Shown piece by piece: positions 37,701 through 55,178 of a DNA stretch of 64,000 nucleotides. The stretch covers positions 1 to 64,000 of the forward strand of contig NZ_BJYS01000030.1 of assembly GCF_007991635.1 (NCBI RefSeq), written 5' to 3'. Both the position numbers and the translations under genes were made by a program. Under the pieces are notes generated by a model. The model saw nothing but the letters and a program-made list of their open reading frames with translations. It was not told the origin of the DNA and searched no databases. The stretch is from Adhaeribacter aerolatus. GTDB lineage: Bacteria > Bacteroidota > Bacteroidia > Cytophagales > Hymenobacteraceae. The number at the start of each line of letters is the position of its first letter. Position 1 is the first letter of the stretch.

Positions 37701-37887
37701 GGTGCATTTCGGTTTCGAAATGGCCGTAGTTCATCATCCGGGACCCCAGGTTATTGCCAATTAAAACAATATGGGACCCTTTCCTGAATTTAAGAGCATT
37801 TTGGTTGCTCTCAGTAAGGCTAGTCCAGGAGGCTTTACAACCCACCAGGATTAAAACGCCTACGAAGATTTTAACTATATACCGCAT
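34717..37887 (-). CDS. large lipoprotein: SGNH hydrolase + PVC-type dehydrogenase propeller + HEAT + cytochrome c
   Basis: The 1,056-residue protein begins with a lipoprotein signal (IFVGVLILVGC, Cys17). Domains in order are: an SGNH/GDSL-like region (about 35-270: GSHIVLIGNNLGSR, ADVIIAFFGYNESFQG, DGSQLTDAGYARF), a membrane-bound-dehydrogenase-type beta-propeller (about 370-740: PCQITFDNKGRLWVATMP, IILEDTNNDGKADKQTIF, FAPDGSLYIADWHN), HEAT-like helices (about 780-910: YHARAAAVRVVRYTG, NSRVRLEALVAASWLD) and a C-terminal cytochrome c with CGTCH at Cys934-Cys937-His938. It is likely a periplasmic redox enzyme of unknown substrate. The N-terminal hydrolase makes the fusion notable. It forms an operon with ThuA. 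Confidence 0.9.
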   Translation of the reverse strand: MRYIVKIFVGVLILVGCKASWTSLTESNQNALKFRKGSHIVLIGNNLGSRMMNYGHFETEMHLRYPDSLLFIRNMCDPGNTPGFRPHSSRNSPWAFPGAEKFQTELAQKSGSEGHFDTEEQWLTRLKADVIIAFFGYNESFQGEEGLQNYKAELDAFVQHTLNQKYNGTAAPQLALVSPIAFEDLSKQYDLPNGKKENANLAMYAEAMKEIAARHKIHFIDAFTPTKEWYDSSDKPLTIDGSQLTDAGYARFSKLLADESFGKAAPKAEKNRALVHAAVMEKNWMWHNDIKIPNGVHAYGRRYNPFGPDNYPAEIKKTRELTAIRDEAIWQAAKGKKMDIAAADKNTTQLLPVKTNYNPEKNGSLEYLYGQDALNKLKVAPGYKIELFASEKEFHDLANPCQITFDNKGRLWVATMPTYPHYRPGDAKPNDKIIILEDTNNDGKADKQTIFAENLHLPVGFELAPEGVYLSQGTNMVLLKDTNGDDKADSKEILLSGFDDHDTHHAHHVYTLDPSGAIYMGEGVFLHTNVETSYGPVRGTNGGFYRYTPQRKMLERTAQLSIPNPWGIMFDEWGQNFFAETSSPDVRWMMPGTVKPRYGEATHKSVQLIEDKHRVRPTSGIEIISSRHFPDDAQGDFLINNTIGFLGTKQHTLKDDGTGYKSQHRQDLLQSEDRNFRPVDMEFAPDGSLYIADWHNVLIGHMQHNARDPLRDHVHGRIYRITYPSRPLIKPAKVAGASINELLDNLKLPEYRTRYRTKRELRGRPTAEVLASLKTWVANLDKNDPKYEHHLLEGLWVTWGLNKVDETLLRQLLQAKDYHARAAAVRVVRYTGHQVADQADLLMQAARDENSRVRLEALVAASWLDKEKGLAIVNEAAKKPLDDWMIHAHEAAVAHLNGRAVEAKKPEAVTTNLKGAERDLFVKGKAIYAQEGFCGTCHQPDGKGLTASGFPPLSGTPWVTGNDERLIKIVLKGLHGPIEVAGQKYAGQVPMTPFGGMLKDEDVAAVLTYVRNSFGNKAPAISPDKVKEVRAATTNKTGFYSPTELLKLHPMETGVQ

Positions 37888-39627: not shown

Positions 39628-42600
39628 CTAAAGACCAATGTTCAGACCCATCATAAATACCCGGGGCTTCGGATAGTCGTACAAAACCACGCCCTGCTCG
39701 AAAGTACCGCCGGAAGTAGAGGCTTCTGGGTCGTAGCCGGTGTATTTGGTGCTCAGGAAGAAGTTCTGGGCCGAGGCATAAATCCGGAGGCGATTTAACT
39801 TTAATTTCTGAGTTATTTCGGGCGAGAAGCGGTAAGCCAACAGCAGGTTGCGGCCTCTTAGGAAAGAAGCGTCCATGATCCGGTCGGAGTCTTCGTTGGT
39901 GTTATAACCGGCCGATACCGGCCGCAACTGGGCAATATTAGTGTTCTGGTTTTCGGGTGTCCAGGCGTTAAGCACAGTGCCTAAGCTGTTAGCAATACCC
40001 TGGCGGTCTTCGGTGGAGTGCTTGGTACGGAACAGAATATCGTTGCCGAACATGTACTGCAAATCCAGCGTCAGGTCGAAGTTTTTGAAGCGGAAGGTAT
40101 TAATCATGGAGCCAAAACCATCCGGAATACCTTTGCCAATAATTACCCGGTCGAGCTGGTTAATCTGGCCATCTTCGTTTACATCCTGGTATTTAATATC
40201 GCCGGGTTTCTTCAAATATTTAGCGGCCATATCGGCTTCGGCAGTGCCCCAGGTGCCCTGGTGGATGTAGCCAAAGAAAGAACCTACGGGCTCACCTTCC
40301 CGGATAATAGTCGGACCCTGGAAGATATCGGCGCCACCGGTTAAGGCAATTACTTTGTTTTTATTTGCTGAAATATTGAAGGTAGTATTCCAGCCGAAAT
40401 TGCCAGCGTTAATGTTTACCGTGTTAATAGCAAATTCAACCCCGCGGTTCTCCATGCTGCCCACGTTGCGGGTTACGGTGGTATAGCCACTGCTGGATGG
40501 TACCGGCGCGCTCAGCAGCATATCGGTAGTCAGCTTGCGGTACACATCAAATTCGAGTGAGAGGCGGTTATCGAACAGTCCCAGTTCCAAACCGGCATCC
40601 ACCTGGTGGGTTTTTTCCCAACGCAAATCGGGGTTAGCTAAACGGCTTATACCAATACCAATAGTACGGGCACCGTTGAAAATAACTGAGTAATTGCCCA
40701 AACCGGCGAGCGCCTGATAAGCTGTAATTTCGGAGTTACCCGTTACACCGTAGCTGGCACGCAGTTTTAAGTTAGAAATAGCCGGAATACTTTTAAGGAA
40801 CTCTTCTTCGGAAACCCGCCAGGCCACAGCCGCAGAAGGGAAGAACGCGTAGCGGTTAGCCGAACCAAATTTAGACGAGCCATCGGCGCGACCAGTGAAA
40901 GTAACCAGATACTTATCTTTTAAGCCATAATTAAAGCGGCCGAAATAAGAGTTAAGCCCGTAGGCGCTGGTCCCGGAACTCGGCGCTACCGGGTTGGCAC
41001 CGGCGCCTAAATTATTAACCCCGAAGTAATCGTCCTGGAAACGCTGCGACTGAGCGGTAGCGGTAAATGCATCTACGTGCTGCCACGATAAACCTAACAT
41101 ACCGGTAAAGGAATGCATTTCGCGGAACCGTTTGTTGTAAGTCAGGTAGTTTTCGAACTGCCAGGAGTTATGCCGGGCATTGCTCACCGAAGCATCGCCG
41201 CCCTGGTTCCGGGAGATATAGTTAAGCGTGCGGCCGCCGTAGTAATCAATGCGCTGGTTAATAATATTGGTCCCCAGGGTAGTCCGCAGTTCCAAACCTT
41301 CGGCCAGGGTAATATTGGTAAACACGTTGCCCAGCATGGTTTGGGTTTTGAGTTCGTATTTACGGTTTTCAATAATATCTAATGGGTTACCACCACCCTC
41401 CATGCCGGGATAGTCTTCGTTGCCAGCCCATTTGCCGTCGGGGTATTTTACCGGAATAATGGGTAATGCTTCTAACACCTGGCGCATCGCAATAATACCG
41501 CCAGCACCCAGCGGGTCAATCTGGTTTTCGTTCTGGTCGTTGTAACTAAGTGTACCGCCCACTTTTAGCCAGTTTTTAACCTGGCTGTCGAATACAAAGC
41601 GGCCGGAATAACGCTTCAGCCAGGAGCCGCGCATTAAACCGTTTTCGTTCCGGTAGCCCATGTACACGCCGTAGCTGTCTTTATTGTTACCGCCGGTAAA
41701 AGATAACTGATGATTTTGGCTAATTGCTTTCTGAGTAGCTTCTTCCTGCCAGTCAGTATCGTACTTGGGGTTGCCGTTAGCGTCGAAAAGCCGGGGATCG
41801 GTTCTTTTGAGTTTAGGATCTTTGTACTTGCCGCCGGCCCAGCCTACCGGGTCAAACTTCTGGGCATTCTGGTAAGCAATATCTTCTACCATTAAAAATT
41901 CCTTGGAATTCAGAAGGTCCATTTTGCGGGCCAGTATGCCCACACTCCAGTCGGTATCGTAGTTTACGCGGCCACCGTCCTGGCTGCCCCGTTTGGTAGT
42001 TACCAATATTACCCCATTAGCGCCGCGGGCACCGTAAATAGCGGTAGCCGACGCGTCTTTCAGCACTTCAATAGAGGCAATATCGTTGGGGTTAATATAA
42101 TCGATGGGGGTGCTGCCGTTGGCCAGGTTGGTTACGTTCAGGATTACACCGTCTATTACATAAAGTGGGTTATTCGTTACACTTACCGAAGTATTGCCGC
42201 GGATACGAATGTTGGCACGACCACCGGGGCGGCCGGAATTAACCGATACGTTGGCGCCGGTTACCCGACCTGCCAAAGCCTGGTTTAAGGAAGCTGCCGG
42301 CCGTTCCTGCAATGCTTCGGCCTTTACCGAACTTACCGCACCGGTCATATCGGATTTCCGCTGTGTACCGTAACCTACTACCACTACTTCCTCCAGTGCT
42401 TTGGCATCCGGAGACAGGGTAATATTTATGGTGGTCTGGTTATTAATAGCTACTTCTTTGGTTTGGTAACCAATAAAGGAAACTACCAGCGTGCCACCGC
42501 TGCCGGGTATATTTAAGTTATAAGTCCCGCTCGCATCGGTGGTGGTGCCATTGGTAGTGCCTTTCAGCAATACCGTAACACCGGGTAAACCACCACCCTG

Positions 42601-42717
42601 CTCATCAGAGACCTTTCCTTTTATTCCAACGTTTTGGGCCCAGGCGCCCGCCGTGGCGAGCAGAAAAAGCGGCAGTATCAACAGATACCTTGCTTTTTTA
42701 AGTAAACTGTTTTTCAT
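39628..42717 (-). CDS. SusC-family TonB-dependent transporter
   Basis: The frame opens at a TTG at 42792, but the ATG at 42717 gives a proper signal peptide (YLLILPLFLLATAGAWAQ) and was chosen; 1,029 residues. A carboxypeptidase-D-like domain (GKVSDEQGGGLPGVTVLLKG), LEEVVVVGYGTQRKSDMTG, a plug (IRGNTSVSVTNNPLYVIDGV, YGARGANGVILVTTKRG) and a barrel follow. The N-terminal 120 residues are very similar to those of the other minus-strand SusC (51507-54602), suggesting duplication or shared recent ancestry. There is no STN domain. A CAGGATA direct repeat lies about 150 bp upstream of the ATG. Confidence 0.95.
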   Translation of the reverse strand: MKNSLLKKARYLLILPLFLLATAGAWAQNVGIKGKVSDEQGGGLPGVTVLLKGTTNGTTTDASGTYNLNIPGSGGTLVVSFIGYQTKEVAINNQTTINITLSPDAKALEEVVVVGYGTQRKSDMTGAVSSVKAEALQERPAASLNQALAGRVTGANVSVNSGRPGGRANIRIRGNTSVSVTNNPLYVIDGVILNVTNLANGSTPIDYINPNDIASIEVLKDASATAIYGARGANGVILVTTKRGSQDGGRVNYDTDWSVGILARKMDLLNSKEFLMVEDIAYQNAQKFDPVGWAGGKYKDPKLKRTDPRLFDANGNPKYDTDWQEEATQKAISQNHQLSFTGGNNKDSYGVYMGYRNENGLMRGSWLKRYSGRFVFDSQVKNWLKVGGTLSYNDQNENQIDPLGAGGIIAMRQVLEALPIIPVKYPDGKWAGNEDYPGMEGGGNPLDIIENRKYELKTQTMLGNVFTNITLAEGLELRTTLGTNIINQRIDYYGGRTLNYISRNQGGDASVSNARHNSWQFENYLTYNKRFREMHSFTGMLGLSWQHVDAFTATAQSQRFQDDYFGVNNLGAGANPVAPSSGTSAYGLNSYFGRFNYGLKDKYLVTFTGRADGSSKFGSANRYAFFPSAAVAWRVSEEEFLKSIPAISNLKLRASYGVTGNSEITAYQALAGLGNYSVIFNGARTIGIGISRLANPDLRWEKTHQVDAGLELGLFDNRLSLEFDVYRKLTTDMLLSAPVPSSSGYTTVTRNVGSMENRGVEFAINTVNINAGNFGWNTTFNISANKNKVIALTGGADIFQGPTIIREGEPVGSFFGYIHQGTWGTAEADMAAKYLKKPGDIKYQDVNEDGQINQLDRVIIGKGIPDGFGSMINTFRFKNFDLTLDLQYMFGNDILFRTKHSTEDRQGIANSLGTVLNAWTPENQNTNIAQLRPVSAGYNTNEDSDRIMDASFLRGRNLLLAYRFSPEITQKLKLNRLRIYASAQNFFLSTKYTGYDPEASTSGGTFEQGVVLYDYPKPRVFMMGLNIGL

Positions 42718-42770
42718 GATTGTTTGGTTTAGGTGAAAGTGAATAATGCTGGTTTGGTTTCTGATTAGTG

Positions 42771-42794
42771 GTTTAGCCAACCTTTTAGCCAACC
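42771..42794. repeat. two tandem copies of a 12-bp unit in the susC leader
   Basis: GTTTAGCCAACC is followed directly by TTTTAGCCAACC on the plus strand; on the transcribed strand this is GGTTGGCTAAAA repeated. It lies 55-80 bp upstream of the susC ATG. It may be a regulator site or chance duplication. Confidence 0.55.
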
Positions 42795-42865
42795 TCTTGG
42801 CTGTTATTTTTAAGTCGATAATCAGATTAGATATTTTCTAATTTAGGCGGATTATACACCTTAAC

Positions 42866-42882
42866 TATCCTGTGCTATCCTG
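42866..42882 (-). promoter_or_regulatory. CAGGATA direct repeat, site 1 (upstream of susC 39628-42717)
   Basis: On the minus strand this reads CAGGATA-gca-CAGGATA, two identical heptamers spaced exactly 10 bp start to start (one DNA turn). It lies about 150 bp upstream of the susC ATG, with TATAAT about a dozen bases downstream. Two similar sites lie upstream of other minus-strand operons. Binding by a shared activator or unusual sigma factor is inferred. Confidence 0.6.
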
Positions 42883-43370
42883 CCTATAAAAGAAAATTAT
42901 TAAAAATTTTTTAATAAAGGCTGATCCTTAAAGAATATTAAAATTGGTAACGTTTTCTCTTAGATGAGGCTTAAAGAAGTAGTATATATATAATATTTAT
43001 AATTTTTAATGGATTTTTGTGTTTTATCGTCAGAATAAATGTTTTGGAGATAACTTAAGAAATAAAGGGAAGGCAGAGGCAATATTATCCTCAGAAATTC
43101 TAAGGGAAGACGCAACGCTGATGGAGCCCTATAGCATATATTAACGATACGGAATTAGATGAAAGTAGAAGTGGTACTAAGTTTTTAGAACCCGGTAGTT
43201 TCGCCGGAATAACCGGGTTTATCTAAGCGAATAAATAATTCATCAGGCAAGTAGATATAACAAGTCGGTATAAATATTCGGATGCAACTAGTGCGCCTGG
43301 TAAACCTGACTAAACCCAAAATACTGAGTGGAGCACCCTTGCCAAAGAATATTTTAGTATTTTTAATCCT

Positions 43371-43904
43371 GTGAAACTGTTGCTGCTCTTTTCTTTATTA
43401 TCTTTTAATTTCTGGGCACAGACTTTTCCGGTGGATCCACTTTCGGGTAAAATATATTACGCCGAAGAAGTGCTGGTGAAAGACGGGCCCCAATTTGATT
43501 TGTATCACCGCGCTAAAGCCTGGTTTGCTGCCGGCAAAAACAAAAAAGCGTTGCAGACAGACGATTTGGCGAATGGTTTGCTAGTTGGTCGAAATTACCG
43601 GTTCGTTTCGGTGCCCGATGGGAATAAAGCGCAGACCTACCGGTTATGGTACACGGTAAAACTAGAAATGGAAGATGACCGCTACTGGTACAGTATTACC
43701 GATTTTCTGTTAGAGGGGGAGCAATTACCTAACGCGGCCGGCGTTAAAGCCCACAAAAGTAAAGTGCCTTTAGAGGCTTTGGTGTTAACTAAAAACGGAA
43801 CAGACCCTAAAGAGAAGAAAGAAATACTTAATAAGTTATTGGAAAAGGCCACCCATAAAAGCATCCTGGCTTTGATAAAAGAACTTAAAGCTAGTATGCT
43901 TTAG
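43371..43904 (+). CDS. DUF4468-type exported protein (GTG start)
   Basis: The 177-residue protein starts at a GTG that yields a good signal peptide (LLLLFSLLSFNFWAQ); no nearby in-frame ATG is better. The mature start FPVDPLSGKIYYAEEVLVKDG and LYHRAKAWFAAG match the DUF4468 (TBP-like fold) family, small periplasmic or secreted proteins of unknown role common in Bacteroidota. It is divergent from the SusC gene and convergent with the NHL-repeat gene, so it does not belong to either operon. Confidence 0.78.
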   Translation: MKLLLLFSLLSFNFWAQTFPVDPLSGKIYYAEEVLVKDGPQFDLYHRAKAWFAAGKNKKALQTDDLANGLLVGRNYRFVSVPDGNKAQTYRLWYTVKLEMEDDRYWYSITDFLLEGEQLPNAAGVKAHKSKVPLEALVLTKNGTDPKEKKEILNKLLEKATHKSILALIKELKASML

Positions 43905-43965
43905 CAGGAGGGTGTATTATGCAGAGGGGGTGTGTAATTGCCAATAGATCTCACAGGTATTGTGC

Positions 43966-44016
43966 AGGAGAAACCTATTTGGCGGCCTGTTACTACCTGC
44001 TGCTTAGGTTCCTCCT
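43966..44016. repeat. degenerate palindromic repeat related to 45352-45408
   Basis: Arms AGGAGAAACCTA and TAGGTTCCTCCT pair over 12 positions with one mismatch. The left half (CAGGAGAAACCTATTTGGC) resembles the minus-strand reading of the element at 45352-45408 (CAGGAGGAACCTATTTGGC). It lies between convergent genes and could also terminate the DUF4468 transcript. Confidence 0.55.
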
Positions 44017-44127
44017 CCTTGCCACCAGTGGATAACAATTATTTTAAACTGATTAAGGGGACATAATTACTTTGATATACAAATTTCAATAATTTATATA
44101 CTTAAAACTTATTACTTATAACTTTCC

Positions 44128-44152
44128 ACTTACTTACTTACTTACTTACTTT
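44128..44152. repeat. (ACTT)6 tetranucleotide repeat
   Basis: About six uninterrupted ACTT units lie between the convergent DUF4468 and NHL-repeat genes, 60 bp from the latter's stop. No expression effect is expected at this location, though it may be length-variable between strains. Confidence 0.85.
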
Positions 44153-44212
44153 GATTTAATATTTCTTTAAAGGTTGTAGCCTTTAAGTACAAAGAGCCGC
44201 CTGTTTTCGGTT

Positions 44213-45283
44213 TTAAATCCGCTCTAATTTAACCGGATACGTTTTACCGGAAGCCCACTGGGGTACGTAAATACTCTCGTCGGAATCTACACATACATCG
44301 TGCGGATGCAGAAAACCCATGAAGGAGCGGTCTTTGCGCTGTTCCTGTAATACATTCTTTACGTACTTGGGCTCGGTGCCGCCCGGCGTAGAAATTACCC
44401 GGTCTTTCTCGTCGAAAATAGTGATGTAGCCCGAATCTTTGTAATCCTGGGAAGTGCTGCGGTAAACGGCGGCGTACAGGTTTTTGCCTTTGAGCACGGG
44501 CCGGCAAATAAAGGAACCCGGAACCGGTATAGTAGCCAAATATTTTCCGTCTAAAGTAAATCGTTTCAGGCTGGTGTGCGAGCGGTCGGTTACCAACAGG
44601 GTTGGATTTTTTGCGTCGCGGGTATCTACCAGTACGCCGTGGCAACATTCAAAAGTGCCGTCGGTGGCGCCTTTCCCACCAAAATGCCGGATATATTCGC
44701 CTTTGCTGTTGTACTGGGTTACAAAATTACGGCCGTAGCCGTCGGCCACGTAAATATCGCCATTAGCCGGGTTTATGGCCGTTTCGGTAGGCTTAAATTC
44801 GCCGGGGTGGTTATAATCTTTTATTTCGCGCGGATAATCAATCTTAAATATTTCTTTCCCTTTCAGGTCGGTTTTAATTACCTGGTTCCGGTCGGTATCG
44901 GTAATCAGCAAAAATTGTTCGCCGCCTTCGTTACCTAAAGTTAAGCCATGGCCGCCGGGGTAGCTGTTGCCCCAGGTTTCCAGCAGTTTGCCCGATTTGT
45001 CGTAAATTAAAATATTATTGCGGGTTTCGTTCGTCAGCATGATTAACCGGCCTTTGGCATCTTCTACCATTTCGTGGCAGTCGTTTACCGGGTTTTTGCC
45101 GGCATCCAAAACACCCCAGCCTTCTACTACCCGGTAGCGGTGCGAATTATGCCCCAGCGTAGCTCCCAATTTTTGACCAAAACTCTTTTTTACCCAAATA
45201 GTCGGGAAGAAAGCACTCACGGCTAAAGTGGTACTGGTTTTTTTTAAAAATTCACGTCTATTGTTATTTGTGGTGTTTCCCAT
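44213..45283 (-). CDS. Tat-exported NHL-repeat (six-bladed beta-propeller) protein
   Basis: The 356-residue protein has a twin-arginine signal (NNRREFLKKTSTTLAVSAFF). Repeated propeller motifs follow: GKLLETWGNSYPGGHGL, INPANGDIYVADGYGRNFVTQYNSKGEYIRHFGGKG, HGVLVDTRDAKNPTLLVTDRS, and GFLHPHDVCVDSDESIYVPQW. Proteins of this type are exported folded, hinting at a cofactor or a need for cytoplasmic folding; some relatives act as lyases or binding proteins. It is downstream of the Tat-exported DUF1501 gene on the same strand, separated by a palindrome, so it likely belongs to the same functional set. Confidence 0.87.
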   Translation of the reverse strand: MGNTTNNNRREFLKKTSTTLAVSAFFPTIWVKKSFGQKLGATLGHNSHRYRVVEGWGVLDAGKNPVNDCHEMVEDAKGRLIMLTNETRNNILIYDKSGKLLETWGNSYPGGHGLTLGNEGGEQFLLITDTDRNQVIKTDLKGKEIFKIDYPREIKDYNHPGEFKPTETAINPANGDIYVADGYGRNFVTQYNSKGEYIRHFGGKGATDGTFECCHGVLVDTRDAKNPTLLVTDRSHTSLKRFTLDGKYLATIPVPGSFICRPVLKGKNLYAAVYRSTSQDYKDSGYITIFDEKDRVISTPGGTEPKYVKNVLQEQRKDRSFMGFLHPHDVCVDSDESIYVPQWASGKTYPVKLERI

Positions 45284-45351
45284 TACTTATTACTGGTTGA
45301 TATTTTATTAATTGGAGCTTAATTTTAATAAATTTTGCAGGAATTAAAATT

Positions 45352-45408
45352 TGTCATTCAAGAGCTACCTATGTAGCTGCCTGCCAAATAGGTTCCTCCT
45401 GAATGACA
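45352..45408 (-). repeat. palindromic repeat / terminator after the DUF1501 gene
   Basis: Outer arms TGTCATTCA / TGAATGACA pair perfectly over 9 bp and enclose a smaller hairpin (AGCTAC / GTAGCT). It lies 50 bp beyond the DUF1501 stop on the minus strand. A diverged relative lies at 43966-44016, so it is probably a REP-like dispersed element reused as a terminator. Confidence 0.6.
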
Positions 45409-45458
45409 GTGTTGGGTTACTTAAACTTAGCTTTTTACAGCTAAATAATCAAATTTTG

Positions 45459-46979
45459 CTAAGCCTCTTTCACTTCATCTTCCTCAGTGTCTTCTTTTAC
45501 TTCCTTCTTGCCAAATAATTCCATTACCGGCTTGGCTACGCCATCCGGGGTGGTATAAAAAGGCCGCTCCTCAATAATGGCATGGGCATCTTCGGGTATG
45601 CCCAAGGCATGATAAATAGATTGGTGGATCTGATCAATCTTTATCGGTTTTTCGATGGTTTTGCAGGGCCGCTCGTCGGCAGTTTTGCCGTACACGTGAC
45701 CTTTCTGAATACCGCCACCAAACATCAGGATAGAGCACCCGTCGGTAAAGTGGCGGTGCATACCGTAGTTTTTAATATCGTTGATGATGGTGGGCTGGTC
45801 TACCTGGTGCTTCACTTCGGCGCCGGGGCGGCCTTCCAGCATCATGTCGCGGCTAAACTCGCTGGCCAGAATAACTAAGGTGCGATCCAGATGGCCGGTA
45901 CGTTCCAGGTCTTTTATGAGCTGGGCTACCGGGGCATCTATCTCTTTTTTCATGCCCTTCATTCGAGTATGGCCGTTTTCGTGGGTGTCCCAGCCCATAA
46001 AAGGCACATACTCGGTGGTTACGCTAATAAAACGGGCGCCTTTTTCGGTAAGCCGGCGGGCCAGCAAACAGCCTAAACCAAACCGGCCCGTGTTATAAAT
46101 ATCGTAGCTTTCTTTCGGCTCGGTACTTAAATCAAAGGCTTTGGCTTCCGGTGAGTTCAGCAGCATGTACGATTGCTCCATCGCCCGCCGAAGCGATTCT
46201 TTCTGGTAATCGCTGCCAAATTCGCCGAATGCACTCTCGCTGATTAGTTTATTATATAATTCGTTACGCTTTTCGAAACGCTTGTACGACATGCCCACCG
46301 GCGGCTTCACACTATCAAGACCGGTGGTAGGGTCCGGAATCATGAACGGGCCGAACTCGTTGCCGAGGAAGCCGGAAGTATGGAATGCCTTTAGTTCTTC
46401 GCCTTCGCCTAAAGTTAAACGCTGGCCAATGTCGATGAAAGCCGGAATAACCGGATTTTTAGGGCCTAATTCTTTGGCTATCCAGGCACCCATGTGGGGC
46501 GCTGCCACCGATTGGGGCGGCTCGTAACAGGTGTGCCAGTGGTATTGGTGGCGCGAATGCAGAATATGACCTAAATCGGCCGCTACGTAAGACCGGATTA
46601 AGGTGCCTTTATCTATTATTTTACCAATCGACTCCAGGCCTTCCGAAAAATTAACGCCATCGAGCACGGTTGGTACTGCTTTAAACGTACTCAGTACCCG
46701 GTTAGAGTCCAGGCCTTTTTCGAAAGGGGTATATTGTTTCGGGTCGAAAGTATCGGTATGGGCCATACCACCGGCCATCCAGAGCAAAATTACGGTATCG
46801 GCAGTTGAATTGGCTAAACGCTGTTTAACCGCATCCGATTCCAGTAGTTTTTTATTTTTATCGCTACTACTGCTGCAGGAGGATAATAAACCGGCCATCG
46901 GTGCACCAGCCGCCAAGGCGCCCAGCGTTGCGGCACTAGCCGTTTTTAAAAATTCTCTTCGGTTCCATTTGGAATGCAT
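45459..46979 (-). CDS. Tat-exported DUF1501 protein (module A)
   Basis: The 506-residue protein has a twin-arginine signal (NRREFLKTASAATLGALAAG). DUF1501 features are TVILLWMAGGMAHTDTFDPK, HSRHQYHWHTCYEPPQSVAAPHMGAWI, RFISVTTEYVPFMGWDTHENG, LVILASEFSRDMML and SILMFGGGIQKGHVYG. The domain is related to the alkaline phosphatase/sulfatase superfamily, but its reaction is not established. It has an acidic C-terminal tail (KEDTEEDEVKE). It follows the DUF1553 gene by about 80 bp, forming the usual DUF1553-DUF1501 pair. Confidence 0.93.
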   Translation of the reverse strand: MHSKWNRREFLKTASAATLGALAAGAPMAGLLSSCSSSSDKNKKLLESDAVKQRLANSTADTVILLWMAGGMAHTDTFDPKQYTPFEKGLDSNRVLSTFKAVPTVLDGVNFSEGLESIGKIIDKGTLIRSYVAADLGHILHSRHQYHWHTCYEPPQSVAAPHMGAWIAKELGPKNPVIPAFIDIGQRLTLGEGEELKAFHTSGFLGNEFGPFMIPDPTTGLDSVKPPVGMSYKRFEKRNELYNKLISESAFGEFGSDYQKESLRRAMEQSYMLLNSPEAKAFDLSTEPKESYDIYNTGRFGLGCLLARRLTEKGARFISVTTEYVPFMGWDTHENGHTRMKGMKKEIDAPVAQLIKDLERTGHLDRTLVILASEFSRDMMLEGRPGAEVKHQVDQPTIINDIKNYGMHRHFTDGCSILMFGGGIQKGHVYGKTADERPCKTIEKPIKIDQIHQSIYHALGIPEDAHAIIEERPFYTTPDGVAKPVMELFGKKEVKEDTEEDEVKEA

Positions 46980-47058
46980 GGCAAGAATAAATTTAATTTC
47001 TAATATTCATTAATCTGAAATATTCCCCAATTATCAATTACAAAAGATGCTACTTAGG

Positions 47059-49566
47059 TTAATATATCAACTGAAACTCGGGTAGCAGCACTACTGCCCA
47101 CAGAAAATCCTGCACCGCTTCGGAATTAGGGGTTGGGCCGAGTACTTGTTTTGCTACGTTAATTTCTTTGGGTACTGGTGCCCGGCCCAAGGCTTTGCGG
47201 TAAACTTCCCGGATGATGGTATCGCTGTCTTTGTAGCGGGCAACCCAGCTATCGGCGCCTCTCTTCAGCACGGCGTTAAAGGCTTTGCCATTGGTAAGTT
47301 CCAGGGCTTGCAACAGATTGGCCTGCGAGTCGCGGCCCGTAATTACGGTTTCACGGTTTGGCCGACCAAGGGCGGTTAAAAAGCCATCGTTTTTAACCAA
47401 AGAGGCCCTTACAAAAGGCGTGCTGGCCTGCTCGGGCTTAAGCTCGGGAAAATGCTTGTACTGAACCGCCGAATCGGCGTAAACCGGCTGAATGGCGCTA
47501 CTAACGGCATCGGCAAATTGTTCCGCCGACATGCGCTTGCGCAGCATACCCGCAAAACGGAAATCGGGAGCATTAATTTTTTGCTCGTCCATTATTTTAA
47601 CCGATGGCAACTGGTAAGTTTTGGAGGTCGCAATCAGGTAAATCAGCTCTTTCAGGTCGTAATTGCGGGCTACAAAATCGGAGGCCAGCCAATCCAGTAA
47701 ATCCTGGCTCCAGGGTTCGTTGTCCATGGCATCAACCGGCGCCACAATGCCGCGCCCAAACATTTGCGCCCAGATGCGGTTTACGATGGTGCGGTAAAGG
47801 CGTCCGTTGGCAGGTTTAGTCAGGTTTTCGGCCAGTTGTCGTAGTTTTTCTTTCACCGGAGCTGCTTCTTCTATGGTGCCCAGTTCTTCCCACAATATTT
47901 TGGTTTCGGCCATTTTACCGGTGGGCACATCGCAACGGTTTATTTCCAGGGTGCTATCAGAAAAAATATTCGCAAACGCGTAAGCATCTTTCAGTTTCCA
48001 GTCGCTGATAAAGCTATCGTGGCAGGAGGTACACTTTAAGTTAAGGCCCAGTAAAACCTGCGATACATTTTGCGCCGCCTGCATTTCGGTGCGCTGGCTG
48101 GCATTTACCACCCCGCGCCATTTAATGCCATTAATAAAACCTTCCGAACCTTTGCCGGGGTTTAGCAGTTCTTTCACAAACTGGTTATAAGGTTTATTTG
48201 ATTGCAGCGATTTGTACAGCCAGTCTGAAATATTAGTGCGGCCATTGGTAATATAGCCCGTGCCGGAATAGTCGTTGCGGAGGGCATCGTTCCAGAAGGT
48301 AAGCCAGTGCAGCGCATAATCATCGTTGCGATTTAGGAGTTGCCGCACCCAAATATTCCGCTTATCAGCACGGGAATCCTGGGCAAAGGCGTCCAGTTCT
48401 TCCGGGGTAGGCACTACGCCAATAATATCCAGGTAAATTCTTCTTAAATAAATCCGGTCGCTGACCACATTGGTCCAGGCGACGTTATTCTTTTTAAAAT
48501 ATTCGTTTACCCACAAGTCTACCGGGTTTTGCAGGTTTTGGGTAGCCTTGGGCAGGGATGGGTTTCTGGGCTTCAGTTCGGCTACCCGGAAAATATTCTT
48601 TTGTCCTTTATCGGGCCAGGGAGCGCCCTTCTCTACCCAGTAGGTAATTAGCTGGATATCTTCTTTACTCAGCGGTTTGCCTTTGCCCGGCATAGCCTCT
48701 TTGTGACTGCGCGGCAGGTTTATCCGCCGGATAATTTCGCTCTCGTGCGGCTTGCCGGGTTCTATTATTTGTCCGTGTTTGCCGCCTTTAAATACCATAT
48801 CTTTTTGGTCGAGGCGCAGTTCGCCTTTAATTTTATCGGAGCTGTGGCATTTATAACAATTGTGCGCAAAGATGGCCCGCACCTGGGTATTCAGTTCTAT
48901 TTCCTGCTCGTGGCTCAGCTTATTATTGCCTTTTAACGAAACCAAGCTAAAATTGCTTTTGCTGCCCGGTGCTCCCTCGTAATCATCGCTCCAGGGAATA
49001 ACACTGGTGAGATACATATCGCCGTGCGTTAAGGAAGCACCGTAATGCCCGGCCGCCGTAACACCTACCGCTGTAAATAAAATTAGCCCGCGGTAATATT
49101 TTATTAATTCCCAGCGGTTCTGTTTTTCGATGGTATAGAGGAGATAAGCCGCCATAATACCCAATACCGCGGTTGCTACGCCCGTCCACCGGTGAATGGC
49201 TAAGGTATCGCCGCCGTAATCTTCCTGGCCGGCCAGCATCCACCCCAATAGAGCCGAAAGTACCGCTCCCGCCGCGCCTAATATTACCAGCAAATCAATG
49301 CCGGGCCGGAGCCGGGAGTTGAAGTCTTTTAGCGTAACTACTTCCAGCAAAGCAGCCAGGCACAATAACGTAACCGGAAAATGCACCGCCAGCGGATGCA
49401 GCCGTCCCAGTAGTTTAAAAAGCCAGAAAGTATCATTTGCCGTGCTGGTAGCTGCTTCGGTAACCGGGTCAGCCAAGACATCGGCTAAAAAGAAAGGGTA
49501 TAATACTGCTACTAAAAGTAGAAGTAGCGCCAGAAACTTATATTTATTAAAAGCTTTCGAATTCAT
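47059..49566 (-). CDS. membrane domain + cytochrome c + DUF1549 + DUF1553 fusion (module A)
   Basis: The 835-residue protein starts with about four or five membrane helices carrying conserved histidines (LGRLHPLAVHFPVTLL, IHRWTGVATAVLGIM, GHYGASLTHGDMYL). A planctomycete-type cytochrome c domain follows (CYKCH at Cys237-Cys240-His241, LRLDQKDMVFKGGKHG, KEDIQLITYWVEKGAPWPD), then DUF1549 (YLRRIYLDIIGVVPTPEELD) with a second heme motif CTSCH at Cys512-Cys515-His516, and DUF1553 (IVNRIWAQMFGRGIVAP, LLDWLASDFV, LGRPNRETVITGRDSQANLLQAL). A membrane-anchored, di-heme periplasmic protein is implied. Its reaction is unknown. A CAGGATA repeat lies about 90 bp upstream. Confidence 0.92.
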   Translation of the reverse strand: MNSKAFNKYKFLALLLLLVAVLYPFFLADVLADPVTEAATSTANDTFWLFKLLGRLHPLAVHFPVTLLCLAALLEVVTLKDFNSRLRPGIDLLVILGAAGAVLSALLGWMLAGQEDYGGDTLAIHRWTGVATAVLGIMAAYLLYTIEKQNRWELIKYYRGLILFTAVGVTAAGHYGASLTHGDMYLTSVIPWSDDYEGAPGSKSNFSLVSLKGNNKLSHEQEIELNTQVRAIFAHNCYKCHSSDKIKGELRLDQKDMVFKGGKHGQIIEPGKPHESEIIRRINLPRSHKEAMPGKGKPLSKEDIQLITYWVEKGAPWPDKGQKNIFRVAELKPRNPSLPKATQNLQNPVDLWVNEYFKKNNVAWTNVVSDRIYLRRIYLDIIGVVPTPEELDAFAQDSRADKRNIWVRQLLNRNDDYALHWLTFWNDALRNDYSGTGYITNGRTNISDWLYKSLQSNKPYNQFVKELLNPGKGSEGFINGIKWRGVVNASQRTEMQAAQNVSQVLLGLNLKCTSCHDSFISDWKLKDAYAFANIFSDSTLEINRCDVPTGKMAETKILWEELGTIEEAAPVKEKLRQLAENLTKPANGRLYRTIVNRIWAQMFGRGIVAPVDAMDNEPWSQDLLDWLASDFVARNYDLKELIYLIATSKTYQLPSVKIMDEQKINAPDFRFAGMLRKRMSAEQFADAVSSAIQPVYADSAVQYKHFPELKPEQASTPFVRASLVKNDGFLTALGRPNRETVITGRDSQANLLQALELTNGKAFNAVLKRGADSWVARYKDSDTIIREVYRKALGRAPVPKEINVAKQVLGPTPNSEAVQDFLWAVVLLPEFQLIY

Positions 49567-49654
49567 TTAAGTAATGTTATTAGGGCTTTAAAAAATATTG
49601 CCGGTTGAGTCGGATTAAAGGGATTTCTAATATGTGCAGCTATCATAAAAAAAC

Positions 49655-49671
49655 TATCCTGTACTGTCCTG
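49655..49671 (-). promoter_or_regulatory. CAGGATA direct repeat, site 2 (upstream of the DUF1553 operon)
   Basis: On the minus strand it reads CAGGACA-gta-CAGGATA, with the same 10-bp period as site 1 and one substitution. It lies about 90 bp upstream of the ATG at 49566, with TATGATA a few bases downstream that could serve as a -10-like box. Confidence 0.6.
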
Positions 49672-49926
49672 TTTGGCGGGTACGTTAACGCAAAAAAGCA
49701 GATTAACCTTAAGTATCCGTATTTTTAAGGACTTATGCAAATAATTTGGCTAATAAATATTGATCTATCTCTTTGATATTCAACATTAACAAATTATGCA
49801 GTGCTATATAGGAATAAGAGGGTAGCTAATATATGCTGGTATTTATTACTTGGAATTGGTGCAGCCATACGTTTTGTTGGAAAGACTGAAACCCGTAAAA
49901 ATTATTATGTACGCGGCCCCACAGCT

Positions 49927-49973
49927 AAAAGCAGATAATACTAACCGAAAATTGGATAGCATTATCTGCTTTT
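49927..49973 (-). terminator. hairpin terminator after susD (fourth pair)
   Basis: A perfect 13-bp stem (AAAAGCAGATAAT / ATTATCTGCTTTT), with partial extra pairing inside the 21-nt loop, 16 bp beyond the susD stop on the minus strand; the arm ends in TTTT in that direction. Confidence 0.7.
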
Positions 49974-49988
49974 AAAGCGCGGAGTAAT

Positions 49989-51500
49989 CTAATAGCCCTG
50001 ATTCTGGCTTAGCTTTTCATTAATTAAAATCTGCGGCGCTGGTATAGGAAACACATGTTCGTGCGGCTCATACACATAGTCGAGCGTACTATAAATCACG
50101 CCACCCCTATCTACGGTAGGGTTAGCTTTTTCCTTGGCTGCGTAGGCGTTCATGAACTGCGCCAGTTCCGCCGGGGTCTTCGTCCGCTTCAGGTCGAACC
50201 AGCGGTGGTTTTCGAAGGCCAGCTCCACTCTTCTTTCCTGGAGTACCTTTTGGCGGAAAATGTTTTTATCCAGGCCGCGTACTTCGGGCAATTTGGCGCG
50301 GCTGCGCACCTGATTAAGGTAACCGTGGGCCTCCTCTGTAGGGCCACTTTGTTCGTTAAGGGCCTCGGCGAGCATCAGCAAGACATCGGCAAACCGGAGT
50401 ATTGGCCAGTTGTTATCTGTCCGGCCCGAAAGGGTATGGGCATGGCGGTACTTGTTGACGAACGGCGTGGGTACCCACTCGCCTTTGGCATTGGTATAGC
50501 CTTCTTTCAGGGAAATGTCCTTACGCACATCGCCGGTCTCGTAAGCGGCTATCAGGTCGCGGGTAGGAATGTTGCGGCCCGATGGCGTTACGTTGGCGAA
50601 GCCCGTAATAGAACCACCGGATAAGCGGGGCGCAAACACGTACATGAAGTTGCTTTGTTCGCCCAGGTCGTTACCGCCCTGGTACTGCACCTCAAAGATA
50701 GACTCCACCCCGTTTTTCTTGGCCGGGTCGAAGTTATCGGCATAATTAAGATTCAGCGCGTAACCCAGCGGCAGCACCTGCTTGAGCGTTGTGACGGCCT
50801 CGGCGTACTTCTTCTGGGTCAGGTAAAACTTGCCCAGCAAAGATAAAGCCGCCCCTTTGGTAACCCGCCCGGCATTGGCGGCGTTGTATTTATCGGGCAG
50901 GCCGGCAATGGCCTCTTTCAGATCTTTTTCGATCTGCGCTTCTACTTCGGCTTGCGGGGAGCGCAGCAGGGCAAAAGCCGCATCGGGCTTACTGAGCGTA
51001 GTTGTTACCAGCACCACATCGCCAAAGTATTGCACCAGGTTAAAATAATAGTAGGCCCGCATGAATTTAAGCTGACCTTCCAGGGGTGCTTTGGCCGCAT
51101 CATCGATGGTGGTGCTGCCGGATAGTTTCTCCAGCGCAAAATTAATGTTATACAAGGCTGAATAATAATTGTTCCACAAATTGGAAATCTCGCCGTTACC
51201 CGAGTTTACCGTAGAAAACTCAAACGCCTCCCAGCCGGCAGCTCCGCCCCGGTCTACGGGGTTAAAATCCAGCGTGGTATTGTCGGAGGTAAACTCCTGA
51301 AAGATATAGGCAGTGTTGGTGATGCCCTGTAGCTGACCGTACACGCCGTTAAGGGCCTGCTCCACCTGCTTTTGATCCTTATAAAACAGTTCAGATCCAA
51401 CACGCGTAGGGTCGGTGGTTACCAGGAAGTCGTCGTCGCAGGAAAACTGCATCAGACTCAGCAGAAAAATACTTATAGCGGTTAATTTCTTCATCTTCAT
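49989..51500 (-). CDS. SusD/RagB-family outer-membrane lipoprotein
   Basis: The 503-residue protein has a lipoprotein signal (ISIFLLSLMQFSC, Cys21) and SusD hallmarks: FLVTTDPTRVGSELFYKDQ, LKFMRAYYYFNLVQYFGDVVLV, ILRFADVLLMLAEALNEQSG, LQERRVELAFENHRWFDLKRT and HVFPIPAPQILIN. It lies only 6 bp after the SusC stop, so the two are translated from one message, and a terminator follows. It sits between the two cytochrome/DUF1553 modules, which suggests that its ligand feeds them. Confidence 0.95.
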   Translation of the reverse strand: MKMKKLTAISIFLLSLMQFSCDDDFLVTTDPTRVGSELFYKDQKQVEQALNGVYGQLQGITNTAYIFQEFTSDNTTLDFNPVDRGGAAGWEAFEFSTVNSGNGEISNLWNNYYSALYNINFALEKLSGSTTIDDAAKAPLEGQLKFMRAYYYFNLVQYFGDVVLVTTTLSKPDAAFALLRSPQAEVEAQIEKDLKEAIAGLPDKYNAANAGRVTKGAALSLLGKFYLTQKKYAEAVTTLKQVLPLGYALNLNYADNFDPAKKNGVESIFEVQYQGGNDLGEQSNFMYVFAPRLSGGSITGFANVTPSGRNIPTRDLIAAYETGDVRKDISLKEGYTNAKGEWVPTPFVNKYRHAHTLSGRTDNNWPILRFADVLLMLAEALNEQSGPTEEAHGYLNQVRSRAKLPEVRGLDKNIFRQKVLQERRVELAFENHRWFDLKRTKTPAELAQFMNAYAAKEKANPTVDRGGVIYSTLDYVYEPHEHVFPIPAPQILINEKLSQNQGY

Positions 51501-51506
51501 AAATCT

Positions 51507-54500
51507 TTAAAAGTTAATTCTGGCACCCAGCGAGAAGGTTCTTGGAACAGGATAAGACTCGTCATCGTTGTTCAGTTCGTTCCCTCCCCGTATGCTGGCA
51601 TCCGGGTTGTTGCCAGGATAGTTGGTAATCAGGAATAAATTAGAGGCATTGAGGAAGATGCGGGTATCGGGAATGTAGGACTTGAAACGGGGCAGGGCAT
51701 AGCCCAGCGTCACGTTCTTCACCCAAATATGGCTGGCATCGTAAACGTAGCGCCCACTGCTTTCCCGCGACCATTTCCAGTCAACCGTACCACCCTGTGA
51801 ATTCTTGTGGTTAGGATTAGAGCCCGGGTTTTCCGGTGACCGCCAGCGGTCCTTCACCTTATCGAGCACGTTAAATACCCCGTCGATGTTCATGGTTGAA
51901 GCTTCTATGTTGCGGTACACATCGTAGTTCTGGGCACCCATAAACAAAACACTCAGGTCAAACTTTTTGTAGTCCGCAGAAAAATTCCATCCCCAGGTGA
52001 AGGAAGGATTAGGATTGCCAATCTCTACCATATCCTTGGTATCGTAAGAGATAACGCCATTGCCGTCAGCATCCCAGAACTTCATAGAGCCCGGGATGGC
52101 GCCGTCTTGTTTTGGCGCCGCATCAATTTCGGCCTGGGTGTTAAAGATCCCCAGCTTGCGATAACCGTAGATCATCCCAATAGGCCGGCCAACTTTCTGC
52201 ACGTTATAGCCGCCGTAGAAGCCGCCGAACCAAAGCATGTCGTTCTCGCCTTTAATAGCCAGAATCTTGTTGCGGTTAAATGTAATGTTGGGACTGGTGC
52301 GGAAATTAACCTGGCCAATGCGGGTATTGAAGTTAAGGCCCAGTTCAACGCCTTTGTTTTCCACTTCACCAATATTAGCCAGGCTGGAGGTAAAGCCCGA
52401 TACGGCAGGAATGGCGATGGGCAGCAGCATATCGTTGGTTAGCTTCCGGTAAATTTCGGCGGTAAAAACAATCTTGTTTTCCAATAAGGAAAGATCGAGG
52501 CCTAAATCCAACTGATTGGATTTCTCCCAGCGCAGCTCCGAGTTGGCAAACTGGCTTACTACTTTACCGGGGGCAAAGGCGTTGCCTAAAATGTAATTGC
52601 TGGCGTTCATGAAAGCCAGGTGTGAGTAGTTACCGATGTCATTGTTACCGGTTTTACCCCAGCTAGCCCGCAGTTTCAGGTCGGAGAGCCAGGCATATTT
52701 AGGCATGAACGATTCCTCCGACAGGCGCCAGCCCACCGAAACGGCGGGAAAGTTGCCGTATTTGTTTTCGGTTCCAAAGCGGCTGCTACCTTCCCGGCGC
52801 ATGGAAGCGGAGAACAGGTATCTGTCTTTGAAAGAGTAATTAACCCGGCTCAGGTAAGCCAATAGGGTCCAGCCAGCTTCACTTGAACCAGCCGATCTGA
52901 TCGAGCCGGCGCCTAAATAAGGCACCAGGTCATCGGGGAAGGTGTTGGCAGAGCCGGACAGTGCCCGGGCAGTTTCCTTCTGGGCAGTATAGCCCAACAT
53001 AAAGTCCAGATGATGTTCGGCGCCCAGCTCGGGTTGGTAGGTTAGCAGTTGGTCAGCCGACAGGTTGTATGTTTGCACCATGTCTTCGAAGGCGGTTGCT
53101 ATCCGTGGCGGCGCACCGGAGGCTCCCTGCTGCACCGGCAAGCCAATGGTAGAAGGCACGTACTCATTGTAATTGTTGAAAGTCACCTTCGCATTGGCGG
53201 CAGTCCGGAATTTAAGACCTTTGAGCAGGGTAATGTCTACATAAGCATTAGACAAGACATCCGCAATATTGCGTTTCCGGTTGATGTTCTTAAGCATAAA
53301 CACCGGGTTGGGGAAGCCAAATACACCATCCTGACCGACAATATAAGGCCGCAAATTGCCTTGATCATCGTAAATGGGCTCCCGGGGATCCATGATCAGC
53401 GTAGAGCCTACTACGGCACTGCGGCCATCGGTATTAGCCAGGCGCTGTCTGGAATAGGTGCCATTTAAATTTAAACCCACCGTAATGAATTTATTTACTT
53501 CGCCGGTTAAATTGGCGCGGGCTGAGATCCGGTCGTAGTTCGTTTCAATAATAGTACCTTCTTCCTTGAAATAGCCTAAAGCCAGTACCGATTTAACGGG
53601 GCCTTTGCCGTTTGATAGCGTCAGGTTGTAATCGGCATAGGGGGCGTTTTTGTTTAAGATAGCGTCATACCAGTTGGTAGAATATTTGGTTTGTTCGGGG
53701 AACCGGAAACCCAGGGGAATCTCTTCCAGGGCTGGTTCTTTCCCGTTATTGACGTACCGGTAGCGGTCGATGAAGGCTTCCTTTTTGAACTGGGCAAATT
53801 CCGGCCCGTTTAATACGGTTACCTTGCGGGAATCGGGAATATTCTGGATGCCGTAATCGGCGCTGAAGCTTAAATTAACCTTGCCCTCTTTGGCGCTCTT
53901 GGTGGTGATGAGCACTACCCCGTTGGACCCGCGGGCGCCGTAAATAGCTGTAGAGGCAGCGTCTTTTAAAATAGTGATGCTTTCGATCTCGTTCGGGTTG
54001 AGATTCTGGCCCACTGAGGTGCCCACGGGAAATCCGTCGATCACATATAAGGGATTGCTGCCTGCCCCCAAAGAACTGATGCCCCTTACCCGTACTTCAA
54101 ACTGGCTGCCGGGTGTGCCGTTTTTCTGTTTTACGGCCACCCCGGGCGCTTGTCCCTGAATAAGCCGGGTTACGTTAGAGGCTGGTACTTCGCCAATATC
54201 TTCCATGCTAATATTAGATACCGCCGCCGTAATGTCGCGTTTGCGCTGGGTTCCGTAGCCCACTACCACTACTTCTTCCAGGGCCTTAGCATCGCCAGCC
54301 AACGTAATATTGATGTTACTGCGGTTATTAACCGGTACTTCCTGGGTGGCATAGCCTATAAAAGAAACAACCAGGGTACCCGCCCCGCTAGGCAGATTGA
54401 GCGAGTAGTTACCTGAAGGATCGGTGGTGGTGCCGTTGGTAGTACCTTTGAGTAATAAGGTAACGCCCGGTAAGCCCTCGCCTTTGTCGTCGGTTACTCT

Positions 54501-54602
54501 GCCCGTTACCGCAATATTCTGGGCCCAGGCCCCGGCCGCAAAACTTAAAAATAGCTGGAGGAGCAGCAAATGCCTCAGCTTAGATTGTAAATAGTCCTTC
54601 AT
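51507..54602 (-). CDS. SusC-family TonB-dependent transporter
   Basis: The 1,031-residue protein has a signal peptide (LLLLQLFLSFAAGAWAQ), a carboxypeptidase-D-like domain (GRVTDDKGEGLPGVTLLLKG), LEEVVVVGYGTQRKRDITAAV, a plug (VRGISSLGAGSNPLYVIDGF, YGARGSNGVVLITTKSAK) and a barrel ending SLGARINF. It has no STN domain. The N-terminal region closely resembles the SusC at 39628-42717, but the barrels differ more. CAGGATA site 3 lies about 440 bp upstream, implying a long leader or a distant activator site. Confidence 0.95.
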   Translation of the reverse strand: MKDYLQSKLRHLLLLQLFLSFAAGAWAQNIAVTGRVTDDKGEGLPGVTLLLKGTTNGTTTDPSGNYSLNLPSGAGTLVVSFIGYATQEVPVNNRSNINITLAGDAKALEEVVVVGYGTQRKRDITAAVSNISMEDIGEVPASNVTRLIQGQAPGVAVKQKNGTPGSQFEVRVRGISSLGAGSNPLYVIDGFPVGTSVGQNLNPNEIESITILKDAASTAIYGARGSNGVVLITTKSAKEGKVNLSFSADYGIQNIPDSRKVTVLNGPEFAQFKKEAFIDRYRYVNNGKEPALEEIPLGFRFPEQTKYSTNWYDAILNKNAPYADYNLTLSNGKGPVKSVLALGYFKEEGTIIETNYDRISARANLTGEVNKFITVGLNLNGTYSRQRLANTDGRSAVVGSTLIMDPREPIYDDQGNLRPYIVGQDGVFGFPNPVFMLKNINRKRNIADVLSNAYVDITLLKGLKFRTAANAKVTFNNYNEYVPSTIGLPVQQGASGAPPRIATAFEDMVQTYNLSADQLLTYQPELGAEHHLDFMLGYTAQKETARALSGSANTFPDDLVPYLGAGSIRSAGSSEAGWTLLAYLSRVNYSFKDRYLFSASMRREGSSRFGTENKYGNFPAVSVGWRLSEESFMPKYAWLSDLKLRASWGKTGNNDIGNYSHLAFMNASNYILGNAFAPGKVVSQFANSELRWEKSNQLDLGLDLSLLENKIVFTAEIYRKLTNDMLLPIAIPAVSGFTSSLANIGEVENKGVELGLNFNTRIGQVNFRTSPNITFNRNKILAIKGENDMLWFGGFYGGYNVQKVGRPIGMIYGYRKLGIFNTQAEIDAAPKQDGAIPGSMKFWDADGNGVISYDTKDMVEIGNPNPSFTWGWNFSADYKKFDLSVLFMGAQNYDVYRNIEASTMNIDGVFNVLDKVKDRWRSPENPGSNPNHKNSQGGTVDWKWSRESSGRYVYDASHIWVKNVTLGYALPRFKSYIPDTRIFLNASNLFLITNYPGNNPDASIRGGNELNNDDESYPVPRTFSLGARINF

Positions 54603-55178
54603 AAAACATCATTTAAGGTGTGGTGGATAAATTAGAAAAGCTAGAAATAATTAATCAGGGTAATACAAAATCAGGTAAATGGTACGCTGGAAATAGATTG
54701 TATTCTGGTACTGTAAATAAAATTCAGCCGAAAGCTGGTAAGGAGCAATCGGGTAAAGCTTTATTAATTAATCTTCTAAATATCTTCTAAGAAGCTCCTG
54801 AAGGAAGCCGGGTGATTTTTGGGTACGCAGTATATTTCGGTTCTAATACCAAATTGATTAAATGAAGACGTCGTAATAAGTGTTAAAACCCGGCTGGTCT
54901 TACAGGCGCTGGCAGATTTAACTGAGCTAATACGTCATGCATAAAGCAATGTGGTTTAATGAACTGCCCATTGAGGTTGATGCCTCCCCTGCGGAACAAA
55001 CTGTAATAATTAATTTTTTAATGTATAGAATAATTCTGAGTTAACAATCCTGTGGTATCCTGGTTTATAACTGGTTATATATAATTATTAATTATTTTAA
55101 TAAATGCATAGAAATCTTTTGGTAGTTTAATTTTAATCTTGAATGTTTTATAATAATTGTCTGGAAAATTTTTGTCTT
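54603..55178. other. intergenic region upstream of susC
   Basis: About 575 bp with no recognisable gene. It contains CAGGATA site 3 near its right end. No TAnnTTTG promoter box was found near the susC ATG. Confidence 0.55.
55046..55062 (-). promoter_or_regulatory. CAGGATA direct repeat, site 3 (upstream of susC 51507-54602)
   Basis: On the minus strand it reads CAGGATA-cca-CAGGATT, again with a 10-bp period and one substitution. It is about 440 bp upstream of the susC ATG and 117 bp beyond the end of the preceding gene, so it belongs to the susC transcript rather than to its neighbour. Confidence 0.55.

Follow-up and report, generated by a model that had tools for sequence, protein, structure and literature searches.

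The window studied here, a stretch of 64,000 bases taken whole from a genome of Adhaeribacter aerolatus (bases 1-64000 of contig C30, genome G000, 6.68 Mb in 95 contigs), raises the question of why one short direct repeat stands ahead of three separate operons, and which protein would read it there. The repeat consists of two CAGGATA half-sites separated by three bases and is found on the minus strand at 42866..42882 (site 1, CAGGATA-GCA-CAGGATA, no mismatches), 49655..49671 (site 2, CAGGACA-GTA-CAGGATA, one mismatch) and 55046..55062 (site 3, CAGGATA-CCA-CAGGATT, one mismatch). Coordinates and strand had been given correctly in an earlier note on this DNA, which also placed all three sites in intergenic DNA and before either SusC/SusD pairs or a cytochrome/DUF1553 operon; both placements held, in a window of which ~86% is covered by open reading frames (ORFs). 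The repeat is a real and widely conserved control element and, judged on sequence, it is probably the operator of an L-rhamnose regulon to which a GntR-type class II activator would bind.

Apart from sites 1-3, every match to the repeat in the window has at least three mismatches, and the 12 matches found at up to three mismatches (3.72 expected) were reached in 0 of 100 shuffles. A held-out matrix, trained on 41 sites from other genomes with the genome itself and its nearest relative left out, recovered exactly the three sites, with scores of 39.7, 30.7 and 30.8 for sites 1, 2 and 3, respectively, and the rest of the window scored below 6; six simulated windows peaked at 2.7-8.8 and the reversed window at 12.0. 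The repeat had been said to be absent from the plus-strand glycan locus and the sigma/FecR locus, and this was borne out, only sites 1-3 scoring 6 or more in the window.

The key feature of the three promoters had been overlooked, namely a -7 box, TAnnTT, 20 bp after the repeat. The box reads TAAATTAG at 42838..42845 for site 1, CATATTAG at 49627..49634 for site 2 and TACATTAA at 55018..55025 for site 3, all on the minus strand, and it is these strings, at exactly 20 bp, that are conserved, rather than the TATAAT- or TATGATA-like strings previously taken for the promoter element. A TAnnTT starts exactly 20 bp past the repeat at 10/16 of the genome's own sites and at 40/67 sites from relatives (50/83 together), the 67 including chance matches inside genes of distant genomes, and at any other distance from 8 to 44 bp it occurs 0-2 times in the two sets summed. 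For the genome's own set, the binomial P at the preset distance is ~1e-15. A matrix of 55 sites, in which the first base of the box was left free, reads (A/G)CAGGATA(G/C)n(A/G)CAGGATA-G, 20 unconserved bases, then TAnnTT(T/A)(G/A).

Occurrence at chance frequency in the genome, which the earlier note had named as grounds for refutation, was far exceeded: with up to one mismatch the repeat was found 16 times, against once for the reversed pattern. These matches are mostly clustered, with six on C30, two on C31, three on C35 and two on C52. At up to two mismatches, 81 matches (7 reversed) are scattered over many contigs, and because this repeat-only class is mostly background the box was required in the searches. 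The full pattern of repeat and box gave 14 matches in the genome at up to two mismatches and 26 at up to three, with 0 for the reversed pattern at both levels; among the 58 relatives (59 genomes with this one) the reversed full-pattern matches total 5. Placement was checked for 13 of the 14 sites, those on C30, C31, C35 and C52 (the fourteenth is on C25); all 13 lie outside ORFs of at least 90 codons and ahead of a same-strand ORF.

The genes behind the sites point to L-rhamnose. On C35 the targets are rhaT (an NCBIfam equivalog) and the rhamnulose-1-phosphate aldolase/dehydrogenase gene (rhaEW), which has its own site and is followed by rhamnose-isomerase-like and FGGY-kinase genes. Those on C31 are a GH88 protein, a SusC/D-like pair (so named from sequence resemblance) and a GH31 gene, downstream of which, on the same strand, lie genes for a sulfatase, a rhamnose mutarotase (RhaM) and a GH106 rhamnosidase, while C52 carries a second GH88 gene and a site 388 bp ahead of a 94-residue ORF of no known family. 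On C30, the targets comprise the three window operons and a cytochrome c protein, a 3-keto-disaccharide hydrolase gene, and an additional SusC/D pair with DUF4432, TIM-barrel and Gfo/Idh genes behind it. RhaT, the aldolase/dehydrogenase and RhaM pass curated cut-offs; the rhamnose isomerase is a strong match below its cut-off, and the kinase was matched only at family level. In the relative G012, a rhamnogalacturonan lyase (L100:3730-5583) lies behind a site. Because the targets include rhaT, rhaEW, GH88, GH31 and SusC/D genes, the set is read as a rhamnose regulon, with the window's SusC/D and DUF1549/DUF1553 cytochrome operons among its members. The earlier proposal that a shared regulator ties these operons together is supported; its restriction to transport and periplasmic processing fell away, the L-rhamnose/rhamnoside regulon comprising at least 13 promoters on four contigs. 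Near the divergent rhaT site, a perfect repeat at C35:19098-19114, 505 bp ahead of an ORF, has CCTGAA at 20 bp in place of a proper box; its counterpart in the nearest relative (G001) has CTTATT.

The likeliest reader of the repeat, and the best candidate among the regulators, is the predicted product of a GntR-type gene at C31:41018-42031. It carries an N-terminal GntR winged helix (PF00392, E 5.3e-12, residues 16-78) and a C-terminal LacI-type periplasmic-binding-like domain (PF13377, E 1.5e-9). The predicted model (mean predicted local distance difference test score, pLDDT, 88.4; predicted template modelling score, pTM, 0.69), with its recognition helix at 52-64, matches in fold the LacI-family repressors LacI, RbsR and PurR and the AraR effector domain (3tb6), and by sequence the protein matches the AraR DNA-binding domain 4egy (E 1.2e-7). 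Orthologues of gntR with at least 61% identity are present in 12 of the 37 genomes of the family, this one included, and those 12 carry 7-23 full-pattern sites each; the other 25 have 0-2, except G009 (7) and G007 (4). G004, from the same genus and with no close gntR orthologue, has 0. The distance from gntR to the nearest listed site is 184-7058 bp in 10 of the 12 genomes.

The association extends beyond the close orthologues. Two other genera of the family (g4 and g5) have a gntR homologue, 46-49% identical, between rhaEW-like and isomerase-like genes at the two loci viewed, L135 and L143. Repeats of the kind CAGGAGA-n3-CAGAACA or CAGGAGG-n3-CAGGAGA, with the box 20 bp on, occur at seven loci of the two genera. 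When the best 80 of 583 gntR relatives from a scan of the genome collection were examined, rhaEW lay inside the locus flanks at 43, of which 37 have 300 bp of upstream DNA (11/37 from Dyadobacter). The best repeat upstream of rhaEW had 0-2 mismatches out of 14 in 26 of these 37, three in 4 and four or five in 7, with a mean of 2.41 against 5.34 in shuffles. Box-anchored and half-site-anchored searches peaked at 20 bp with 19 matches, against 0-3 elsewhere except for 12 at distance 11 (Dyadobacter); looking de novo for 10-bp tandem repeats of any sequence around the 80 gntR loci gave a noisy result. In G006, a 44% GntR paralogue (L148:7849, plus strand) lies beside ABC-transporter-like and TIM-barrel-like genes, and directly ahead of its own gene stands TCTACTG-n3-TCTACTG, with TAGATT 20 bp on. 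This one case hints that the geometry of repeat and box belongs to the GntR protein type.

In the proposed mechanism, a dimer (or a tandem pair) of the GntR-type protein would contact a single face of the DNA by binding both CAGGATA half-sites, which are spaced by one helical turn. Cited papers are drawn on here and below in excerpt, and in these TAnnTTTG is placed at -12 to -5 in a flavobacterial promoter map (PMC9723704) and given as the consensus of the phylum's primary sigma factor (PMC9723704, PMC7366714). With the transcription starts placed by taking this flavobacterial box position as the yardstick, the repeat would span ~-49 to -33, with its centre at ~-41. Class II activators usually have their sites centred near -41. 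The repeat overlaps the -33/-35 region at a constant distance from the core box, an arrangement that is degenerate outside the family, and to this extent the earlier suggestion that it sits at the place of a -33/-35 element, at a fixed distance from the promoter box, is supported. The bound protein would take the place of the -33 element and recruit RNA polymerase carrying the primary sigma factor to the TAnnTT(T/A)(G/A) box, giving class II activation, presumably in response to rhamnose or a rhamnose catabolite.

A number of findings weigh against this mechanism or limit its reach. A TTTG around -33 is described in Bacteroides fragilis and was not found in F. johnsoniae, according to the excerpt of PMC7366714. 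In the family's other promoters TTTG showed no clear peak at -33 (2/63 boxes at distance 18, 0 at 19-21), and because none is seen there, the idea that the repeat replaces a -33 box is an argument from position only. The site associated with the GntR gene is a direct repeat with no inverted repeat; inverted repeats are the expected operators of GntR proteins that carry effector domains of this kind (a general statement in the excerpt of PMC5320631). Nor does the distribution fit everywhere: G009 has 7 sites but only a 50% gntR homologue, G007 has 4 sites and no gntR match (in an assembly that is 78% complete), and G052, from another family, has only 1 site alongside a 58-59% homologue. Among the matches listed, the site nearest to gntR lies ~15.6 kb away in G014, and in G018 no site is on the gntR contig. 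Conservation upstream of orthologues, the other refutation test named in the earlier note, was found in related genomes and not at every gene; in G005, of the same genus, the DUF1549/DUF1553 counterpart has no site with up to one mismatch directly upstream. Outside the family, a strict TAnnTT at 20 bp was found in only 4/37 rhaEW promoters, with 11 at distance 11, all from Dyadobacter, and the looser box NAnn(T/C)T, which accounts for 34/37 promoters or 20/23 distinct repeats, was chosen after the promoters had been seen.

A pairing between GntR residue 51, at the start of the recognition helix, and base 6 of the first half-site was considered and is not used as support. Serine goes with a pyrimidine in 25/25 cases and alanine with a purine in 18/20, after weak or truncated rows had been removed by hand (serine L149, L209, L220, L248, L250 and L283, and glycine L236, with the truncated L234 kept). 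Three of the dropped serine loci, L209, L220 and L250, have a purine at base 6, and further exceptions are L214, L278 and L134 (alanine, CAGGACA). The pairing is essentially one clade split, and its Fisher value is invalid as evidence because the tree needs only 3 label changes.

The explanation that survives best beside activation keeps the same GntR-type protein and operator and would make the protein a repressor, obstructing polymerase until rhamnose releases it. Repression is common among GntR and LacI-like regulators, and the site overlaps the promoter. However, a repressor's operators need not keep an exact distance from the box, whereas one distance prevails here over many promoters and several genera, and we regard repression as unlikely.

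Somewhat less likely again is that another regulator, such as a DeoR-type RhaR, an NrtR/AraR-like protein or an AraC-type protein, binds the repeat. The predicted operators of DeoR-family RhaR are, in the excerpt of PMC3870299, pairs of imperfect direct repeats with a period of 10-11 bp; an NrtR-like gene is present in the C35 rha locus, and an AraC-type gene lies beside gntR. Against these stand their distributions, profiled for these three candidates among all regulators, which do not follow the sites. No DeoR gene was detected at E <= 1e-15 in G006, G012, G033 and G009, which have 9, 22, 11 and 7 sites, respectively, and the DeoR neighbourhoods of the genome itself have no site with up to two mismatches and some with three. 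NrtR-like matches in G012, G017, G030 and G033 are only partial, at 35-40% identity, and the AraC-type neighbour of gntR is found at 67% identity or above only in G000, G001 and G030 and is missing from most site-rich genomes. The NrtR/AraR-like Nudix regulator of the C35 locus (C35:25923-26699; L035:17923-18699) stands beside the rha kinase gene and does not track the sites.

The earlier note had also considered an alternative sigma factor. In that case the repeat would serve as its extended -35 element, a reading that suits the position within the -33 region and the constant spacing to a -10-like box. We know of no sigma -35 element that resembles a 17-bp tandem repeat. The box, moreover, is a variant of the TAnnTTTG used by the primary sigma factor (excerpts of PMC9723704 and PMC7366714), and the sites track gntR, a regulator gene of the classical sort, whose product (in this comparison termed a one-domain GntR-type regulator) accounts for the repeat better. 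Such a sigma factor is very improbable. A chance or dispersed repeat without function, as might be read from the single C24, C37 and C41 matches at up to one mismatch (no box, score below 10, and set aside as chance) or from the eight repeats of G038 (none with a box, in a genome with no GntR homologue), is contradicted by the excess over controls, the intergenic placement, the fixed spacing and the conservation, and retains next to no likelihood.

Activation by the GntR-type protein, as preferred here, can be set beside known systems. The comparative study of rhamnose regulons (PMC3870299) reports, in excerpt, regulators of the LacI, DeoR and AraC families, with 10-11 bp repeats for DeoR operators and 21-bp periodicity for AraC, and within this phylum deals with Bacteroidales only. 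Its DeoR-family RhaR, from Chloroflexales, Rhizobiales and others, is alike in its rhamnose genes and its direct repeats of 10-11 bp period, compared by description rather than by half-site letters, and differs in that the DeoR gene is absent from the four site-rich genomes named above. The Bacteroides AraC-family RhaR (BT3768) is likewise described, in excerpt, as a rhamnose activator in the same phylum; its direct repeat is of 21 bp, whereas the period here is 10 bp and the regulon has at least 13 promoters. Bacillus subtilis AraR and other GntR/LacI hybrid sugar regulators share the GntR winged helix and the LacI-like domain. AraR is a repressor acting on palindromic operators; the present sites differ in being direct repeats at a fixed activator position. 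GntR regulators of the MocR/GabR type are reported to bind direct repeats (PMC5320631, in excerpt) but carry an aminotransferase-like domain, whereas the present protein has a LacI-like domain and the repeat a period of 10 bp.

In the open-licence papers searched, no description of a GntR-type rhamnose regulator or of such an operator was found, and nothing on DUF1553/DUF1501 together with SusD and rhamnose. Should the GntR protein bind the repeat in the proposed way, it would be a GntR/LacI hybrid recognising direct repeats instead of inverted ones. For a large group of environmental Bacteroidota, the analysis supplies a candidate regulator of rhamnose utilisation and a promoter architecture open to testing, in which operator and box keep a single exact spacing. 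It also places the DUF1549/DUF1553/DUF1501 cytochrome clusters, which are poorly understood, in a metabolic context, rhamnose or rhamnosides, and with that offers a growth condition under which to look for their function.

Within the window, site 1 is followed on the minus strand by genes for a SusC-like TonB-dependent receptor (39628..42792), a SusD-like protein (38098-39600) and a protein with DUF7133, GDSL, HEAT and cytochrome c domains (34717..37887), and then by ThuA-like (33781-34671) and TIM-barrel (32740-33591) genes; from order and strand only, these last three genes are presumed to be on the site-1 transcript. The target of site 2 is a DUF2231/PSCyt1/DUF1549/DUF1553 protein (47059..49566, minus strand), after which come a DUF1501 protein (45459-46979) and an NHL-repeat protein (44213-45283). 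Site 3 precedes a second SusC-like receptor (51507..54602, minus strand) and a SusD-like protein (49989-51500); the distance from site 3 to its ORF start, 417 bp, exceeds those of sites 1 and 2 (47 and 62 bp from the end of the box). Counterparts of the window genes in G001 and G005 were matched by their N-termini. In G001, counterparts of all three sites stand ahead of the counterparts of the three genes, and in G005 a stretch of ~47 kb holds gntR, a RhaM-like gene and four rha genes together with counterparts of the cytochrome, DUF1501, SusC/D, 3-keto-disaccharide-hydrolase-like and Gfo/Idh genes. The gntR homologue of G009 adjoins genes for a DUF4432 protein and a 3-keto-disaccharide hydrolase, both confirmed by Pfam, with rhaEW-like and kinase-like genes nearby.

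Tentatively, and with considerable doubt, it may be proposed that in this genus the regulon has annexed a periplasmic oxidative route for rhamnosides, under a phylum-wide GntR/LacI-hybrid activator binding head-to-tail half-sites in the -33 slot. The 3-keto-disaccharide hydrolase, the Gfo/Idh and TIM-barrel proteins and the DUF1549/DUF1553/DUF1501 cytochrome proteins would, in this speculation, oxidise and split rhamnosides before the classical pathway; the idea stems from known cases of DUF1080 proteins whose substrates are 3-keto sugars (excerpt of PMC9007349).

Other genes were noted close to the regulon. A 407-residue protein encoded in the regulon island (C30:73179-74402; L031:11179-12402) matches nothing in NCBIfam and nothing in Pfam below E 0.17; counterparts of it occur in G001 and G005. 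Beside gntR, in the L034:17923-19893 region (C31:43766-45893) and at L135 and L143, lie genes resembling LutA/LutB, which we take to be for lactate utilisation; they would fit lactate as a product of the rhamnose pathway. About 670 bp past the 3-keto-disaccharide hydrolase gene, at C30:82538-86862, genes for ribose-5-phosphate isomerase B, 6-phosphogluconate dehydrogenase and glucose-6-phosphate dehydrogenase are found.

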